Assembly: GCF_016405985.1 (NCBI RefSeq)
Contig: NZ_JAEFCF010000027.1
Coordinates: forward strand, 1-64,000
DNA length: 64,000 nt
Direction of reading: 5' to 3'
Source of the DNA: Paracoccus sp. IB05
GTDB lineage: Bacteria; Pseudomonadota; Alphaproteobacteria; Rhodobacterales; Rhodobacteraceae
The translations under genes and the position numbers were made by a program. Positions within the stretch are counted from its first letter, which is position 1. The number at the start of each line of letters is the position of its first letter. A model generated the notes under the pieces. That model was not told the origin of the DNA. It was given only the letters and a program-made list of their open reading frames with translations, and ran no database searches. Of the stretch, positions 6,523-53,982 are shown piece by piece.

Positions 6523-6694
6523 TCCGGGTAAGGCCAGACCCTTACCTGAGATTTCCCTGACCAGAGCTGGCCTGCCGGACATTGCAGGTCAGCCCTCAGG
6601 GGAAACGCGGTGCAAGGCGGCGGATCCGCCGCATGATGTCCGCCGCATGATGATCACCGCACTGCCCCGGCAATTCACGAATTCGCCACACATT
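6523..6694. other. Intergenic start of a repeat-rich stretch
   Basis: There is no gene. The segment contains a near-repeat CCGCCGCATGATG(T/A)TC around 6628-6656. The gap continues to 7360 and shows several short tandem duplications, annotated separately. Confidence 0.4.
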
Positions 6695-6728
6695 GTTTGG
6701 GGCAGTGCAGGGTTTGGGGCAGTGCAGG
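6695..6728. repeat. Perfect 17-bp tandem duplication
   Basis: GTTTGGGGCAGTGCAGG occurs twice head to tail at 6695-6711 and 6712-6728. It lies 20 bases before the ATG of a small frame-broken open frame. Slipped-strand duplication is the likely origin. Confidence 0.9.
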
Positions 6729-6747
6729 AAAGCAGCGGGAGCAGACC

Positions 6748-6994
6748 ATGGCAATCGTGACGAGGATCACTGGCGGAGCAATGGACTTCCTGAGTGGCCT
6801 CGCCGCGCAGATCTTCGGCGCAGATCTTCGGCGCCGGTCTTCCGGGCGCGCTGTCGCTCCGGGTCACTGTTGCGCCTGGCATGACGCGTCTGGCGGGCCT
6901 CTTCGCGCGGCTGCCGCGTCGCAGTCCCGTACCGCAGTCTCGTAACCGCAGGGGCCTGACCCTGGCTGTCAGCACTGGCTTGCGAGGAGCGTGA
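6748..6994 (+). pseudogene. Possible small gene frameshifted by a 13-bp tandem duplication
   Basis: An ATG at 6748 with GGGAG 8-9 bases upstream begins MAIVTRITGGAMDFLSGLAA. The frame is interrupted by a 13-base tandem duplication at 6808-6833 (CAGATCTTCGGCG twice). If one copy is removed, the reading continues as AQIFGAGLPGALSL and runs to the stop at 6992-6994, giving about 77 residues with an arginine-rich end. With both copies, the frame shifts and gives an unlikely cysteine-rich tail. No homolog is recognised, so this could be chance. Confidence 0.25.
6808..6833. repeat. Perfect 13-bp tandem duplication
   Basis: CAGATCTTCGGCG is duplicated head to tail (6808-6820 and 6821-6833), followed by a degenerate third copy. 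The unit length is not a multiple of three, so it would shift any reading frame through it. Confidence 0.9.
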
Positions 6995-34629: not shown

Positions 34630-35207
34630 GGGAAGGTTCCTTCCGGCAGCGCGCGGCGCAGGCTGTCACGCTCGGCTGCACTGAACAGGGTTATGGTGGA
34701 GCTGGCAGGCCAGCTGCCGTCAGGGCCGGGTTTTCCGGCCTGAACCAGGCAGGAAAACCTGCGGATGCGAAAAAAGCGGAGCCCGGATACGGCATAGGCG
34801 CGGCTGCGGAGCCTGCCGAGAAACCGGCGCTCGACAAAGAAAGTCCCTTGCTCCAGCCGATATTCGATCACGAGCCCGCCAGCCAGGATGACAACCAGCA
34901 TGAAGACCGCGAAAACGCAGATTGCCGCCGCGATCAGCGCGAAGGCGATCTCGACCGGCGGCAGCGGCTCACCGGTGCCGGCTAGGGCAGTGGCAAGGCG
35001 CAGGACGGGGTAAAAGCCCATCACAGAGCCGATGACCGCGATCAGGGCATAGATGCGCATATCCGGCCGGGCCTGCCACAGGATCACAGATGCAGGCACG
35101 GCGCCAGCTCCGGCCTGTACCCGCGTCACGGCCTGCTCCTGTGCCCCGGTCTGTCCCTGTGCCCCGGTCTGTCCCTGTTCCCCGGCCTGTCCCTGTTTCG
35201 CGGTCAT
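34626..35207 (-). CDS. PH-like membrane protein, paralog 1 of the pyr operon
   Basis: A 193-residue protein. The first 25 residues are a low-complexity repeat (GQTGAQ units) encoded by an 18-base tandem repeat. The motif VILWQARPDMR follows, then two transmembrane helices (about 52-74 and 86-112), then a domain with the pattern GTFFVERRFLGRLRSRAYAV. The layout matches the two downstream paralogs, but the FYxLTDR motif is lost. It begins 9 bases after the pyrB stop, in the same operon. Confidence 0.7.
   Translation of the reverse strand: MTAKQGQAGEQGQTGAQGQTGAQEQAVTRVQAGAGAVPASVILWQARPDMRIYALIAVIGSVMGFYPVLRLATALAGTGEPLPPVEIAFALIAAAICVFAVFMLVVILAGGLVIEYRLEQGTFFVERRFLGRLRSRAYAVSGLRFFRIRRFSCLVQAGKPGPDGSWPASSTITLFSAAERDSLRRALPEGTFP
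35133..35204. repeat. Four imperfect 18-bp tandem repeats inside the 5' end of a coding region
   Basis: Units at 35133-35150, 35151-35168, 35169-35186 and 35187-35204 follow CTGTCCCTGTGCCCCGGT with few changes. Each encodes a six-residue GQTGAQ-like block on the minus strand. The length is a multiple of three, so copy number may vary without a frameshift. Confidence 0.85.
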
Positions 35208-49169: not shown

Positions 49170-50771
49170 TCAGCCAATCGCGGCGGCGCGCACATCGGCG
49201 TCGATATGTTCGACATATTGTCCGAAGTTTTTCGAGAACATGCCGACCAGAATCTGGGCCTGCGCGTCATAACCCGCCTTATCCGCCCAGGTCTCGCGCG
49301 GGTTCAGCAGCACCGGATCCACGCCGGGCACATCGACCGGAACCTCAAAGCCGAAATTCGGGTCCTTGCGGAACTGCACGCGGGCAAGCGAGCCATCCAG
49401 CGCCGCCGTCAGCAGCGCGCGCGTCGCCCTGATCGGCATCCGCCGACCCGTCCCATGCTTGCCGCCGGTCCAGCCGGTGTTCACCAGCCAGCAGGAGGCG
49501 CCGTGCTTTGCGATCTTCTCCTGCAAAAGCTTGCCATAGACCTCGGGCCGGCGCGGCATGAAGGGGGCGCCGAAACAGGTCGAGAAGGTCGGCGTCGGCT
49601 CGGTCACGCCGCGCTCGGTCCCGGGGGTTTTCGAGGTGAAGCCCGAAAGGAAGTGATACATCGCCTGGGCCGGCGTCAGCCGCGAGATCGGGGGAAGCAC
49701 CCCGAAGGCGTCACATGTCAGCATCACCACATTCTTCGGCATGCCACCCAGACCGGTGGGCGATGCGTTGGAAATATACTCCAGCGGATAGGCGCAGCGC
49801 ATATTGTCGGTGAGCGAATTGTCTTCGAAATCAAGCTCGAACGTCTCGGGATCCCAGACCATGTTTTCGACCACGGTCGCGAAACGATGGGTGGTGCCAT
49901 AGATCTCCGGCTCGGCCTCGGCCGAGAGATTGATCGTCTTGGCATAGCAGCCGCCTTCAAAGTTGAAAGTGCCGGTATCCGACCAGCCATGTTCATCATC
50001 GCCGATCAGGATGCGCGAGGGATCGGCGGAAAGCGTGGTCTTGCCGGTGCCGGAAAGGCCGAAGAAGACGGCCGTGTCATCCGGATTGCCGATCGCGTGA
50101 TTGGCCGAGCAATGCATCGGCATCACGCCCTTTTCGGGCAGCAGGTAGTTCAGGATGGTGAAGACCGCTTTTTTGTTCTCGCCGCCATATTCGGTATTGG
50201 CGATCAGTACGGTCTTTTCGTCGAAATTCAGCGCGATCACCGTATCGGTGCGGCAGCCGTGCCGCTCGGGGTCGGCCTTGAAGGACGGCAGGTTGATGAT
50301 TGTCCATTCTGGTTCGAAATGGTCAAGTTCAGCGGCCTCAGGGCGGCGCAGAAGGTGACGGATGAACAGATTATGCCAGGCAAGCCCGCTGACCACCCGC
50401 ACATCGACACGGTGTGCGGCATCGGCACCGGCATAGAGATCCTGGACGAAAACCTCGCGCCCCTTCAGGTGGTCGAGCATATCGGCCTTGAGCAAAGCCC
50501 AGGCGCTCTCCGCCATCGGCGCGTTGTTCTCCCACCAGATGGTGTTCTCGGTCGAAGCCGAACGCACCACGAATTTATCCTTCGGCGAACGGCCGGTAAA
50601 TTTCCCCGTCGTGCAGAGAAAAGCGCCGCCTTTGCCGATATGGCCCTCGCCGCGGGCAACCGCGGCTTCGACAAGTGCAGGTTCGCGATAGTTGTAATGA
50701 ACAGTGCCGGCGCCGCTGATCCCCTGGTGGTCCAGAGTGCGTTTCGGGTTCACGCGTCCGTTCATAGTCAT
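49170..50771 (-). CDS. pckA: Phosphoenolpyruvate carboxykinase (ATP)
   Basis: A 533-residue gluconeogenic enzyme forming phosphoenolpyruvate from oxaloacetate with ATP. Motifs are the kinase-type P-loop [34 protein letters not shown], and [18 protein letters not shown]. coli PckA is 540 residues. Either ATG at 50771 or the one two codons later can start it. It is divergent from chvI; in Agrobacterium pckA is known to be controlled by ChvG-ChvI. Confidence 0.97.
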
Positions 50772-50924
50772 ATCCGTGCCAAGCTCCGGTCGCCGCGCGC
50801 CTGGCGCGGCCTTGGTTGAAACTGCGCCCGGGCCTTGGGCGCAAGGGCAAACCTATCCGTTTGTACTGCCCTCTTTGCGCCTATAACACGCGGCCCGGAA
50901 AGGAAAACAGCAACCTTTCAGGGA

Positions 50925-50957
50925 GTTAGCGCAACCATTCCCAGGTTAGCGCAACCA
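50925..50957. promoter_or_regulatory. 13-bp direct repeat between pckA and chvI, candidate ChvI operator
   Basis: GTTAGCGCAACCA occurs identically at 50925-50937 and 50945-50957, a 20-base period close to two helical turns, as expected for an OmpR-type regulator dimer pair. It lies about 155 bases before the pckA start and 155 before chvI. Confidence 0.5.
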
Positions 50958-51052
50958 CCGGCGGCACCTTGCCCACAGTGAGGCATATTCGCCATGCTGC
51001 CGCATTTTCGTGACGCTTTTCCTGCCGGAACGGGTGGGTGATTCGTTTCCTG

Positions 51053-51081
51053 TTGATTCCTGCCCGCGCATTGAGGATTAT
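51053..51081 (+). promoter_or_regulatory. Candidate sigma-70 promoter of chvI
   Basis: TTGATT (51053-51058), a 17-base spacer, then GATTAT (51076-51081), 30 bases before the chvI start. Good agreement with the housekeeping consensus, but not verified. Confidence 0.45.
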
Positions 51082-51111
51082 ATCCGGATAAGAAACAGAG
51101 CAGGATATATT

Positions 51112-51813
51112 ATGTCGCGCATCGCCCTGGTGGACGACGACAGGAACATTCTGACGTCCGTCTCGATGACCCTCGAAGCTGAGGGGTTCGAAGTCGAAAC
51201 CTATACTGACGGCCAATCGGCCCTGGACGCCTTTAATCGCCGCATGCCCGACATGGCGGTTCTTGATATTAAAATGCCCCGCATGGACGGGATGGATCTC
51301 TTGCAGCGGCTGCGCCAGAAGACGGCGATGCCGGTGATTTTCCTCACCTCGAAAGATGACGAGATCGACGAGGTGCTCGGTCTGCGGATGGGCGCGGATG
51401 ACTATGTCAAAAAGCCTTTCTCGCAGCGGCTGCTGGTCGAACGGATCCGGGCGCTGTTGCGGCGTCAGGATGCCGGTGTGGCGACCGATGCACCGGTCTC
51501 GGAAGAGAATAAGGTGATCGAGCGCGGCGAGCTCAGGATGGATCCGCTGCGCCATGCGGTGTCCTGGAAAGGCCGCGATGTCTCGCTGACCGTGACTGAA
51601 TTCCTGCTTTTGCAGGCCCTGGCGCAGCGCCCGGGTTTTGTGAAGTCGCGCGATCAGCTGATGGATGTGGCTTACGATGATCAGGTCTATGTCGATGATC
51701 GCACCATCGACAGCCATATCAAACGGCTGCGCAAGAAGATGCGGACCGTTGATGAGGAATTCTCGGCCATCGAAACGCTTTACGGCATTGGTTATCGCTA
51801 CAACGAAGAATGA
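51112..51813 (+). CDS. chvI: Response regulator ChvI (OmpR family)
   Basis: A 233-residue response regulator of the ChvG-ChvI system that senses acid or envelope stress. The receiver domain (1-120) has the acidic pair in LVDDDRNI, phospho-acceptor D in [12 protein letters not shown], and K in YVKKPFSQR; the C-terminal winged helix (130-233) ends in the typical [11 protein letters not shown]. The start at 51112 follows AGGA. Its stop overlaps chvG by 4 bases. Confidence 0.95.
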
Positions 51814-53552
51814 CAGCCTCGCCGCGCCTTGGGTCTGACAACCGCAACTCCCGCACCGGAACTGGCCGGCGCGGGGGGCAAGTGCTGCTGGGCGAAGACT
51901 GGGTCTCGCCGGAAAGCATTCCTGATGAACAGCGCGGCGCCCGTCCGCTGGGGGGGCTTGTCGCGCTGAACCGCAGCCCGCTGGCGCGCAAGATCGTCAT
52001 TTTCAACCTGATGGCGCTGATCATCCTTGTGGCAGGGGTACTGTTCCTCAACCCGTTCCGCGACAGCCTGGTCCTCAGCCGCGAGGCGGGACTTGTCCGC
52101 GAGGCGCGGCTGATTTCCGGCGTGTTCGAGGCCAGCCAGACGGGCCCGGCCACTGCACCGGATCAGGCAGGCCCGGAGGGGCAGATCACCCCGGCGGCGC
52201 CTTACGACTATTCCGCCGCGCTGCGTCGTGTCGACCTGGCGCCCGGTGTGGTGGCCTTTATCTTTGACGCCGAGGGCGCGATTCTTGCGACCCGCACCGG
52301 CCCCGAAAGCGATCTGGTGGCCCGTCGCCCGACGGTGATCACCGATTTCCTGAACTCGGTCTGGGACGGGGTTTCGGTGGTGCTTTCGCTGGGCCGTACC
52401 CAGCTGGAAGGCGAGGACAGTGCGACGCTGGCGCGCCAGCTTTTGCCCAATGCGATGGCGGGGCAGACTGCCTCTTCGACCGGTCTGGGCCCGGATGGCG
52501 GCAAGGTTTTCTCGGTCGCGACCCCGGTGGCGGTTGCGGGCGAGGTGCGTTCGGTCCTGGTCCTGTCTTCGGCGGCGGGCGAGATCGACCGGCTGGTGCG
52601 CTATGAGCGGGAACAGGTGCTCCAGGTCTTCATCGTGGCGCTGCTGGTCTCGGTCGGGCTTTCGCTGGTGCTGGCCTCGACCATCGCCAATCCGCTCTCG
52701 GATCTGGCGGCGGCGGCAGAGATCGGACGCGGCGGTGACGGCGGTAAGGTCTCGCCGGGGCGGGTGCGGATCCCGGACCTCGCGGCGCGTCCCGATGAGA
52801 TCGGACGGCTTTCGGTCGCAATGCGCGGCATGGTGGCGGCGCTATACGATCGCATTGATGCCAATGAACAATTTGCCGCCGATGTGGCGCATGAGATCAA
52901 GAACCCGCTCGCCTCGCTGCGTTCGGCGGTCGGCTCGCTGCGCTTTGTGAAAAAGGAAGAGCATCGCGAGAAACTGCTCGATGTGATCGAGCATGATGTG
53001 CGCCGCCTTGACCGACTGGTTTCGGATATTTCGAATGCCTCGCGCCTCGATTCCGAACTGGTGAAAGAGGAAGAGGAAGAATTCGACCTCGTCCATACCC
53101 TGACCAATCTGACGCAATATCTGGGCGAACAGGCGGCCGGGTCGGAGGTCGATTTCCTGACCGACCTGCCTGCGGGCAAGATCATGATCCGCGGTCTCGA
53201 AGCGCGGCTGGCCCAGGTCTTCGTCAATCTGATCACCAATGCGATCTCGTTTTGCGAGGCCAGCGATGCGGTGCGGGTCTGGGCGCGTCAGCGCGAGAAC
53301 CGCGTGCTGATCGTGGTCGAAGATACCGGCCCGGGCATTCCGGAACAGGCGCTGACCAAAGTGTTCAAGCGCTTTTATTCCGACCGGCCCGAGACGCATT
53401 TCGGCAATAACTCCGGCCTCGGCCTGTCGATCTCGAAACAGATCGTCGAGGCGCATGGCGGGGTGATCTGGGCCGAAAACATCCGCCACCCGAATGCCGA
53501 CCCCAATTCCGAGCCGCTGGGCGCGCGTTTCGTGGTCGGTCTGCCGGTTTGA
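51810..53552 (+). CDS. chvG: Sensor histidine kinase ChvG
   Basis: A 580-residue membrane sensor kinase. A cytoplasmic N-terminal extension of about 60 residues precedes the first transmembrane helix ([18 protein letters not shown]), then a periplasmic sensing region of about 185 residues, and a second helix ([20 protein letters not shown]). HAMP, the H-box [19 protein letters not shown] and the ATPase with [10 protein letters not shown] and [19 protein letters not shown] follow. It phosphorylates ChvI. The kinase core is complete. The PTS-like genes follow directly in the same operon. Confidence 0.95.
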
Positions 53553-53556
53553 CGAT

Positions 53557-53982
53557 GTGACGGCAGTGCAGATCCTGCATGCCAGTTCGGTTGCCATCCT
53601 GGGCAGGGGGGTGCTGATCCTCGGCCCTTCGGAGGCGGGGAAATCGGCGCTGGCGCTGAAACTCATGGCTTATGGCGCGGCGCTGGTCGCGGATGACCAG
53701 ACCGCGCTGACCGTGTCTGGCGGCGGGGTCGAGATCTCCTGCCCCTCGCAGGCGATCAGCGGGCTGATCGAGGCGCGGGGGATCGGCATCCTGCGGGTGA
53801 CGCCCTCGGGCCCGGTGCCGCTTGCTCTGGTGGTCGATCTGGGGCAGGCGGAAACCGAGCGACTGCCCCCCCGGCGACACATATCTATACTTGGATATGA
53901 ACTGCCGCTTGTGCTGCGCGCGCAAAATGACCATCTTGCCGAAGGATTGCTTGCCCTGATGACGGGCGGGCGACAGGAGTGA
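53557..53982 (+). CDS. hprK: Truncated HPr kinase/phosphorylase (alphaproteobacterial type)
   Basis: A 141-residue protein corresponding to the C-terminal kinase domain of HprK, without the N-terminal domain of Firmicutes. Walker A is GPSEAGKSALALKL, followed by GAALVADDQTAL. It phosphorylates HPr on a serine and can reverse this. It starts with GTG at 53557, 4 bases after the chvG stop. The position between chvG and rapZ is conserved in alphaproteobacteria and suggests a metabolic input to the ChvG-ChvI response. Confidence 0.9.
   Translation: MTAVQILHASSVAILGRGVLILGPSEAGKSALALKLMAYGAALVADDQTALTVSGGGVEISCPSQAISGLIEARGIGILRVTPSGPVPLALVVDLGQAETERLPPRRHISILGYELPLVLRAQNDHLAEGLLALMTGGRQE

Follow-up and report, generated by a model that had tools for sequence, protein, structure and literature searches.

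A tandem direct repeat upstream of pckA in Paracoccus sp. IB05 as a predicted CceR operator

The 13-bp direct repeat that lies between pckA and chvI in Paracoccus sp. IB05 is very probably a tandem operator for pckA, bound by the LacI-family regulator CceR (= GapR, the RSP_1663 ortholog). It belongs to pckA, and it is probably not an operator for ChvI, the product of the adjacent gene. This reading draws on the sequence of the repeat, its conservation, its co-occurrence with cceR, its fixed spacing to promoter-like blocks and the presence of the same motif at other carbon genes, all of which were observed here. It corrects the assignment of a regulator to the repeat, where the adjacent gene misleads, and it locates to the base a control element of pckA that is conserved in much of the Rhodobacteraceae.

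The repeat and the pckA promoter region

The window analysed is a stretch of 64,000 nucleotides, in which GTTAGCGCAACCA occurs as two exact copies on the plus strand, at 50925-50937 and 50945-50957, with a period of 20 bp. The earlier note had described an exact 13-bp direct repeat of 20-base period spanning 50925-50957, and the span is correct. The repeat sits inside a 340-bp divergent gap between pckA (minus strand) and chvI (plus strand), with the following features:

49170..50771, minus strand: pckA, ATP-dependent phosphoenolpyruvate carboxykinase (NF006822, 952.8 bits; TIGR00224, 653.6 bits; both above cut-off)
50882..50888, minus strand: conserved -10-like block TGTTATA, possibly an extended -10; putative -10 role
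50905..50910, minus strand: -35-like block, CTGTTT here (consensus CTGTTC), a poor match to TTGACA; putative -35 role
50925..50937, minus strand: proximal copy, centred at 50930/50931; one CceR dimer is predicted to bind near -56 of pckA
50945..50957, minus strand: distal copy, GTTAGCGCAACCA on the plus strand and TGGTTGCGCTAAC in the pckA sense, centre 50950/50951; CG-centred pseudo-palindrome, where a second CceR dimer is predicted to bind near -76 of pckA, counted from a putative start point
51112..51813, plus strand: chvI, OmpR-type response regulator (Response_reg and Trans_reg_C), divergent neighbour of pckA
51810-53552, following chvI: ChvG-like kinase (best NCBIfam match NF058527 ChvG, under cut-off)

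Beside pckA, the segment 51112-55622 runs in one direction and comprises chvI, the ChvG-like kinase, a short gene (53494-53982, without an NCBIfam match), rapZ, a PTS IIA-like gene and HPr.

In the pckA sense each copy reads TGGTTGCGCTAAC, an imperfect form of the even palindrome with halves GTTAGC and GCTAAC and a central CG. With halves GTTAGC and GCAACC, a copy scores 10/12 against the perfect palindrome GTTAGCGCTAAC and retains the central CG; read in the even register, the copies have CCA or TCA as their outer arm. Most LacI-family operators are even palindromes with a central CG (PMC4052901). RSP_1663 was predicted to control pckA through the inverted repeat [AGT]GTT-N6-8-AAC[ACT] (PMC4344238); the arms of the copies are spaced as GTT-N5-AAC, just outside the printed N6-8.

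Conservation upstream of pckA is extensive. Scanning the GTDB species genomes for TTAGCGCAAYCA-N7..9-TTAGCGCAA yielded at least 119 stretches, 80 of which are listed by name. In 118 of the 119 tandem loci examined, the pair is located 79-167 bp upstream of the pckA start and always in the same orientation; in the remaining one (L161) the locus ends 61 bp from the tandem, and pckA is out of view. The repeat is thus conserved upstream of other pckA genes, and its description in the earlier note as an operator-like element belonging to pckA is borne out. The 80 listed loci come from Rhodobacteraceae genera or alphaproteobacterial MAGs, save one titled Exiguobacterium (L123). Four loci (L098, L120, L122 and L129) have three copies upstream of pckA at steps of 19-21 bp. 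Since the scan and script patterns fix most of the core, the near-invariance of the core in the 119-locus alignment is partly built in and cannot fairly show asymmetry; the fair set for that purpose is the 46 genomes described below, selected at a threshold of 9/12.

In an ungapped alignment anchored at the proximal copy, 119 tandem loci display two blocks on the pckA side, CCTGTTC and TGTTAWR, with 16 bp between them. The CTGTTC and TGnTA columns are also present, at fixed spacing, in the 39 of these loci that did not come from the tandem scan. In 117 loci the pckA side of the pair holds 31.1 bits over 70 ungapped columns, compared to 7.8 bits on the chvI side. A guess from these conserved blocks places the pckA start point near 50875, which would put the two dimers near -56 and -76; they would thus lie upstream of a -35 hexamer that matches the consensus poorly, where an activator would be expected to bind. 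A simple consensus scan of 50700-51200 called no promoter. Tracking of pckA by the distance to its start codon failed, with a standard deviation of 23 bp to pckA versus 17 bp to chvI, and the fixed promoter spacing was therefore used instead.

Co-occurrence of the sites with cceR

We surveyed 61 genomes of the family, one per genus; the genomes G036-G053 lie outside the family and do not enter any of the counts. An ortholog of the LacI-family CceR candidate, with at least 65% identity, is present in 48, pckA in 60 and chvI in 54 of the 61. The region upstream of pckA is readable in 58 genomes, after removal of G065 (a pckA fragment), G070 (no pckA) and G019 (a degraded pckA). A site was defined as a CG-centred match of at least 9/12 at -60 to -230 of pckA. 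By this definition, all 46 genomes with cceR have a site, versus 3 of the 12 without it (Fisher p 2e-8 over the 58 genomes, not corrected for phylogeny; the genomes are not independent, as those lacking cceR tend to be more divergent). Shuffled stretches from -60 to -220 of pckA contain a site in 4% of cases.

The three genomes that have a site and lack cceR are G013, with one weak 9/12 site, G031 and G081. The assembly of G031 is 91% complete and carries a perfect palindrome at zwf, which suggests that cceR is present in the genome and absent from its assembly. The case of G081 (L230) is unexplained: its assembly is 99% complete and it has two pckA sites of 9/12 and 10/12, with no CceR protein match at E 1e-10 and no perfect palindrome. 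In G019 (L264), pckA survives as low-identity pieces with stops, chvI is intact and a cceR ortholog is present; a single 10/12 site is left, some 2.2 kb from the pckA remnant.

In the 46 genomes with cceR, the pckA sites form a pair at 19-22 bp in 38, a pair at 31 bp in three and a single site in five; none of them is a perfect palindrome. The suggestion that two dimers would occupy one face of the DNA is thus a good reading of the 20-bp period. Among the last-listed sites of these genomes (selected at 9/12 or better with a central CG), one half, GCTAAC, is retained in 39 of 46; in 32 of 46 the opposite half reads either GGTTGC or GATTGC, a conserved departure from symmetry. The fba site of the Paracoccus sp. 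IB05 genome, GTTAGCGCGACC, is likewise one-sided.

The motif at other carbon genes and the proposed regulator

The shorter pattern GTTAGCGCNANC occurs at 14 places in the genome, 11 of which are at central carbon or regulator genes: cceR, gnd, edd, zwf, gap1, gap2, a fructokinase-like gene, fba, pgk and pckA (two). The remainder comprise one near pntA/kynU, one near an MFS gene and one near a lyxose/mannose-isomerase-like gene. The match count (9+8) is barely higher than that of the reversed control (7+7), and therefore it is the identities of the genes that form the evidence. The places at gnd, edd, gap2 and pgk lie between divergent genes, where the assignment is our choice, and the names pgk and fructokinase come from matches under the NCBIfam cut-off. 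The list agrees with the GapR regulon (PMC4052901) and with what was predicted for RSP_1663 (PMC4344238); pckA is in both. With one mismatch allowed, TTAGCGCAACCA has 12 places in the genome, fewer than the 16 of its reversed control; they comprise the two pckA copies, gnd, the fructokinase-like gene, fba and seven others.

The perfect palindrome GTTAGCGCTAAC occurs 29 times in 13 genomes of the genus (reversed control, 1), and all 19 occurrences examined there are at zwf (10), edd (6) or pgk (3). In 31 chosen genomes of the family it also occurs 29 times (control, 15), divided into 27 against a control of 7 in the 19 genomes with cceR and 2 against a control of 8 in the 12 without. Among 17 of these family occurrences examined, eight are at zwf, seven at edd, one at gap1 and one at none of these, the last in the cceR-lacking genome G029. 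Combined, 35 of 36 examined occurrences are at zwf, edd, pgk or gap.

The CceR candidate is encoded in the same genome as the repeat (G000:C10:43346-44380) and belongs to the LacI family. We call this protein (L032) a CceR ortholog on the basis of family-wide conservation, motif and literature rather than of a sequence comparison with RSP_1663. A quite unlikely alternative is that the repeat serves a different LacI-family regulator with the same motif, for instance a gluconate regulator. The genome has nine LacI-type helix-turn-helix matches, the candidate itself comes closest to GntR models, without reaching their cut-offs, it has homologs at about 30-47% identity in some genomes, and G081 retains its sites without a detectable CceR ortholog. 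Against this, orthologs of the L032 protein at 65% identity or more, present in 48 of the 61 genomes, track the sites, in an analysis that covered this protein alone among the nine; and a site of at least 10/12 is found upstream of the orthologs' own gene in 18 of 30 cases, versus 0.7% of shuffles.

CceR/GapR is a LacI-family global regulator of central carbon metabolism in the Rhodobacteraceae, with pckA in its regulon (PMC4052901). Deletion of cceR in P. denitrificans lowers PckA on glyoxylate and Fba as well, and raises Zwf and Edd; the authors term CceR an activator of gluconeogenic enzymes (PMC11323563). The protein senses gluconate-6P (6-phosphogluconate) according to PMC5507952, citing Imam 2015. 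The effector, the lower PckA in the absence of CceR and the regulon membership thus come from published papers; we infer direct binding of CceR at the repeat, cooperativity, effector release at the pckA promoter and activation in this organism.

Under the CceR reading, each copy, with halves GTTAGC and GCAACC, would form an even, CG-centred and asymmetric palindrome for one CceR dimer. GapR sites are 20 bp long (PMC4052901), and if this holds for each site here, the two abut exactly. Two abutting 20-bp sites, two helical turns apart and just upstream of the pckA promoter, would place two dimers side by side on one face of the DNA. Distances between LacI-family sites peak at 13, 22 and 32 bp, and those of 22 and 32 bp were read as cooperative pairs (PMC4052901). 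During gluconeogenic growth, without 6-phosphogluconate, CceR would bind and activate pckA; upon sugar breakdown, 6-phosphogluconate would release it from the pckA operator.

The similarities to known systems are closest for the CceR/GapR regulon, with which the repeat shares a LacI-type CG-centred palindrome, pckA as a member (PMC4052901, PMC4344238, PMC11323563) and sites at zwf, edd, gap, fba and the regulator's own gene. The differences are that the pckA sites here are tandem, in one orientation and asymmetric, with an arm spacing other than the one printed. In a limited search of the CceR/GapR literature we found no description of such a tandem asymmetric arrangement at pckA, and we do not claim novelty for it. 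PckR of the Rhizobiales is also a LacI-type dual regulator, with predicted pckA activation and glycolytic repression, but it is stated to be non-orthologous and to have a different motif (PMC4052901). Cra/FruR of enterobacteria is a further LacI-family switch between glycolysis and gluconeogenesis (PMC4052901). It differs in lineage and in regulon. The effectors of Cra/FruR and CceR also differ.

A more tentative proposal, which we consider possible but doubtful, is that the form of the site might encode the sign of CceR regulation: the perfect GTTAGCGCTAAC would mark zwf, edd and other glycolytic genes, and conserved asymmetric sites with one strong half, all in one orientation and in helical phase (20 or 31 bp), would mark pckA; the signs of regulation behind this code are those reported for Zwf, Edd, PckA and Fba. 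The weak half and the pairing could then have been selected for cooperative, effector-sensitive activation rather than reflect decay. Activation through asymmetric phased pairs and repression through single perfect palindromes is an attractive, still speculative idea; the RSP_1663 targets fall into two spacer classes (PMC4344238), which may touch on it already. The system is suited to ask how a LacI-family protein activates one promoter class and represses another.

ChvI and chance as unlikely explanations of the repeat

The earlier note had read the repeat as an operator of the OmpR-type regulator ChvI, serving both autoregulation of chvI and control of pckA, which we consider very unlikely. 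Its position between the two genes speaks for ChvI. In 76 of the listed 80 loci the gene divergent from pckA is chvI; the four others are Paracoccus sp. MKU1 (L081) and three ended by contig or locus ends (L112, L134 and L143). The literature premise of that reading is sound, as control of pckA by ChvG-ChvI in A. tumefaciens is stated in PMC3687685, which also reports that S. meliloti ChvI bound a fragment upstream of chvI. Moreover, a pckA reporter became more active on JspA induction in the ExoR-ExoS-ChvI pathway (PMC10659215), and the B. abortus genes with four BvrR binding sites include pckA and bvrR (PMC9491525). In our survey the sites are also associated with the presence of chvI, being found in 48 of 53 genomes with chvI and one of five without (p 0.0014 over the 58 family genomes).

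However, among the 53 genomes with chvI the sites still follow cceR, with 45 of 45 against 3 of 8. The pckA sites are kept in G035 and in Paracoccus sp. MKU1 (L081/G060), where chvI was not found (no match in L081 at a threshold of E 1e-60), and in G032, where chvI lies on another contig and pckA keeps a 22-bp pair; each of these three genomes has a CceR ortholog of about 70% identity. G035 is the only genome in the survey with cceR and without chvI, so that the separation of the two regulators rests on few cases. Conversely, the site is absent from three of six pckA-chvI gaps in genomes lacking cceR (G027, G029 and G094), the other three having one weak site (G013) or good sites (G031 and G081). 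Perfect forms of the motif sit at zwf, edd, pgk and gap. The persistence of the sites without chvI and the CG-centred LacI-type palindrome leave ChvI unsupported as the protein at the repeat. Autoregulation of chvI through the repeat fares no better: the 400 bp upstream of chvI in G032 contain no site. Among seven chvI upstream regions examined, one 9/12 match each occurs in G038 and G047, both outside the family.

The form of the sites also departs from that of an OmpR-type regulator of R. sphaeroides, CenR, which recognizes TGA-N8-TGA with a 10-bp step (PMC9275681), compared to a CG-centred palindrome with a 20-bp period here. The Caulobacter ChvI motif TTGC-N3-GCAA (PMC9731502) has no match in the pckA-chvI gap, even with one mismatch, and the sole occurrence there of the S. 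meliloti motif GCC-N8-GCC (PMC9731502) is at 50868, outside the repeat; the comparison covered these two among the published ChvI motifs. Compared to the ChvI/BvrR sites of the Rhizobiales and Caulobacter, the locus shares the pckA-chvI gene order and the known control of pckA, whereas neither of the two motifs is in the repeat and the sites follow cceR rather than chvI.

ChvI may still control pckA or chvI through other sequences in the gap, one of which could be the neighbourhood of a conserved TGATTCG block at 51039-51045, upstream of chvI; this block is a better lead than the repeat for chvI control. GATTCG is present in 80 of the 104 loci with an adjacent chvI. A TTG lies some 13-16 bp beyond the block, here within TTGATT at 51053-51058.

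That the repeat is a product of chance or inert is hardly credible, given that family genomes conserve it at constant spacing from a promoter-like block, even though exact 13-bp short-distance repeats recur at four other places in the window. With up to two mismatches, GTTAGCGCAACCA has five matches in the window versus 0.83 expected, namely the two repeat copies and three with two mismatches, and as a tandem at 20-bp spacing it is a single occurrence in the 5.29-Mb genome, even allowing three mismatches. Exact 13-mers recurring at 13-40 bp are found at five places in the window, the pckA repeat and the four others, all of the latter within short tandem arrays at about 6.6-6.8 kb and 35.1 kb; Markov-shuffled windows have a mean of 0.1 such pairs (60 shuffles). 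As these other exact 13-mer repeats also occur, rarity by chance is a modest argument, and it is the family-wide conservation that is the strong evidence for the repeat. The arrays themselves, with units of 13-18 bp, extend over 6625-6951 and 35110-35196 of the window.
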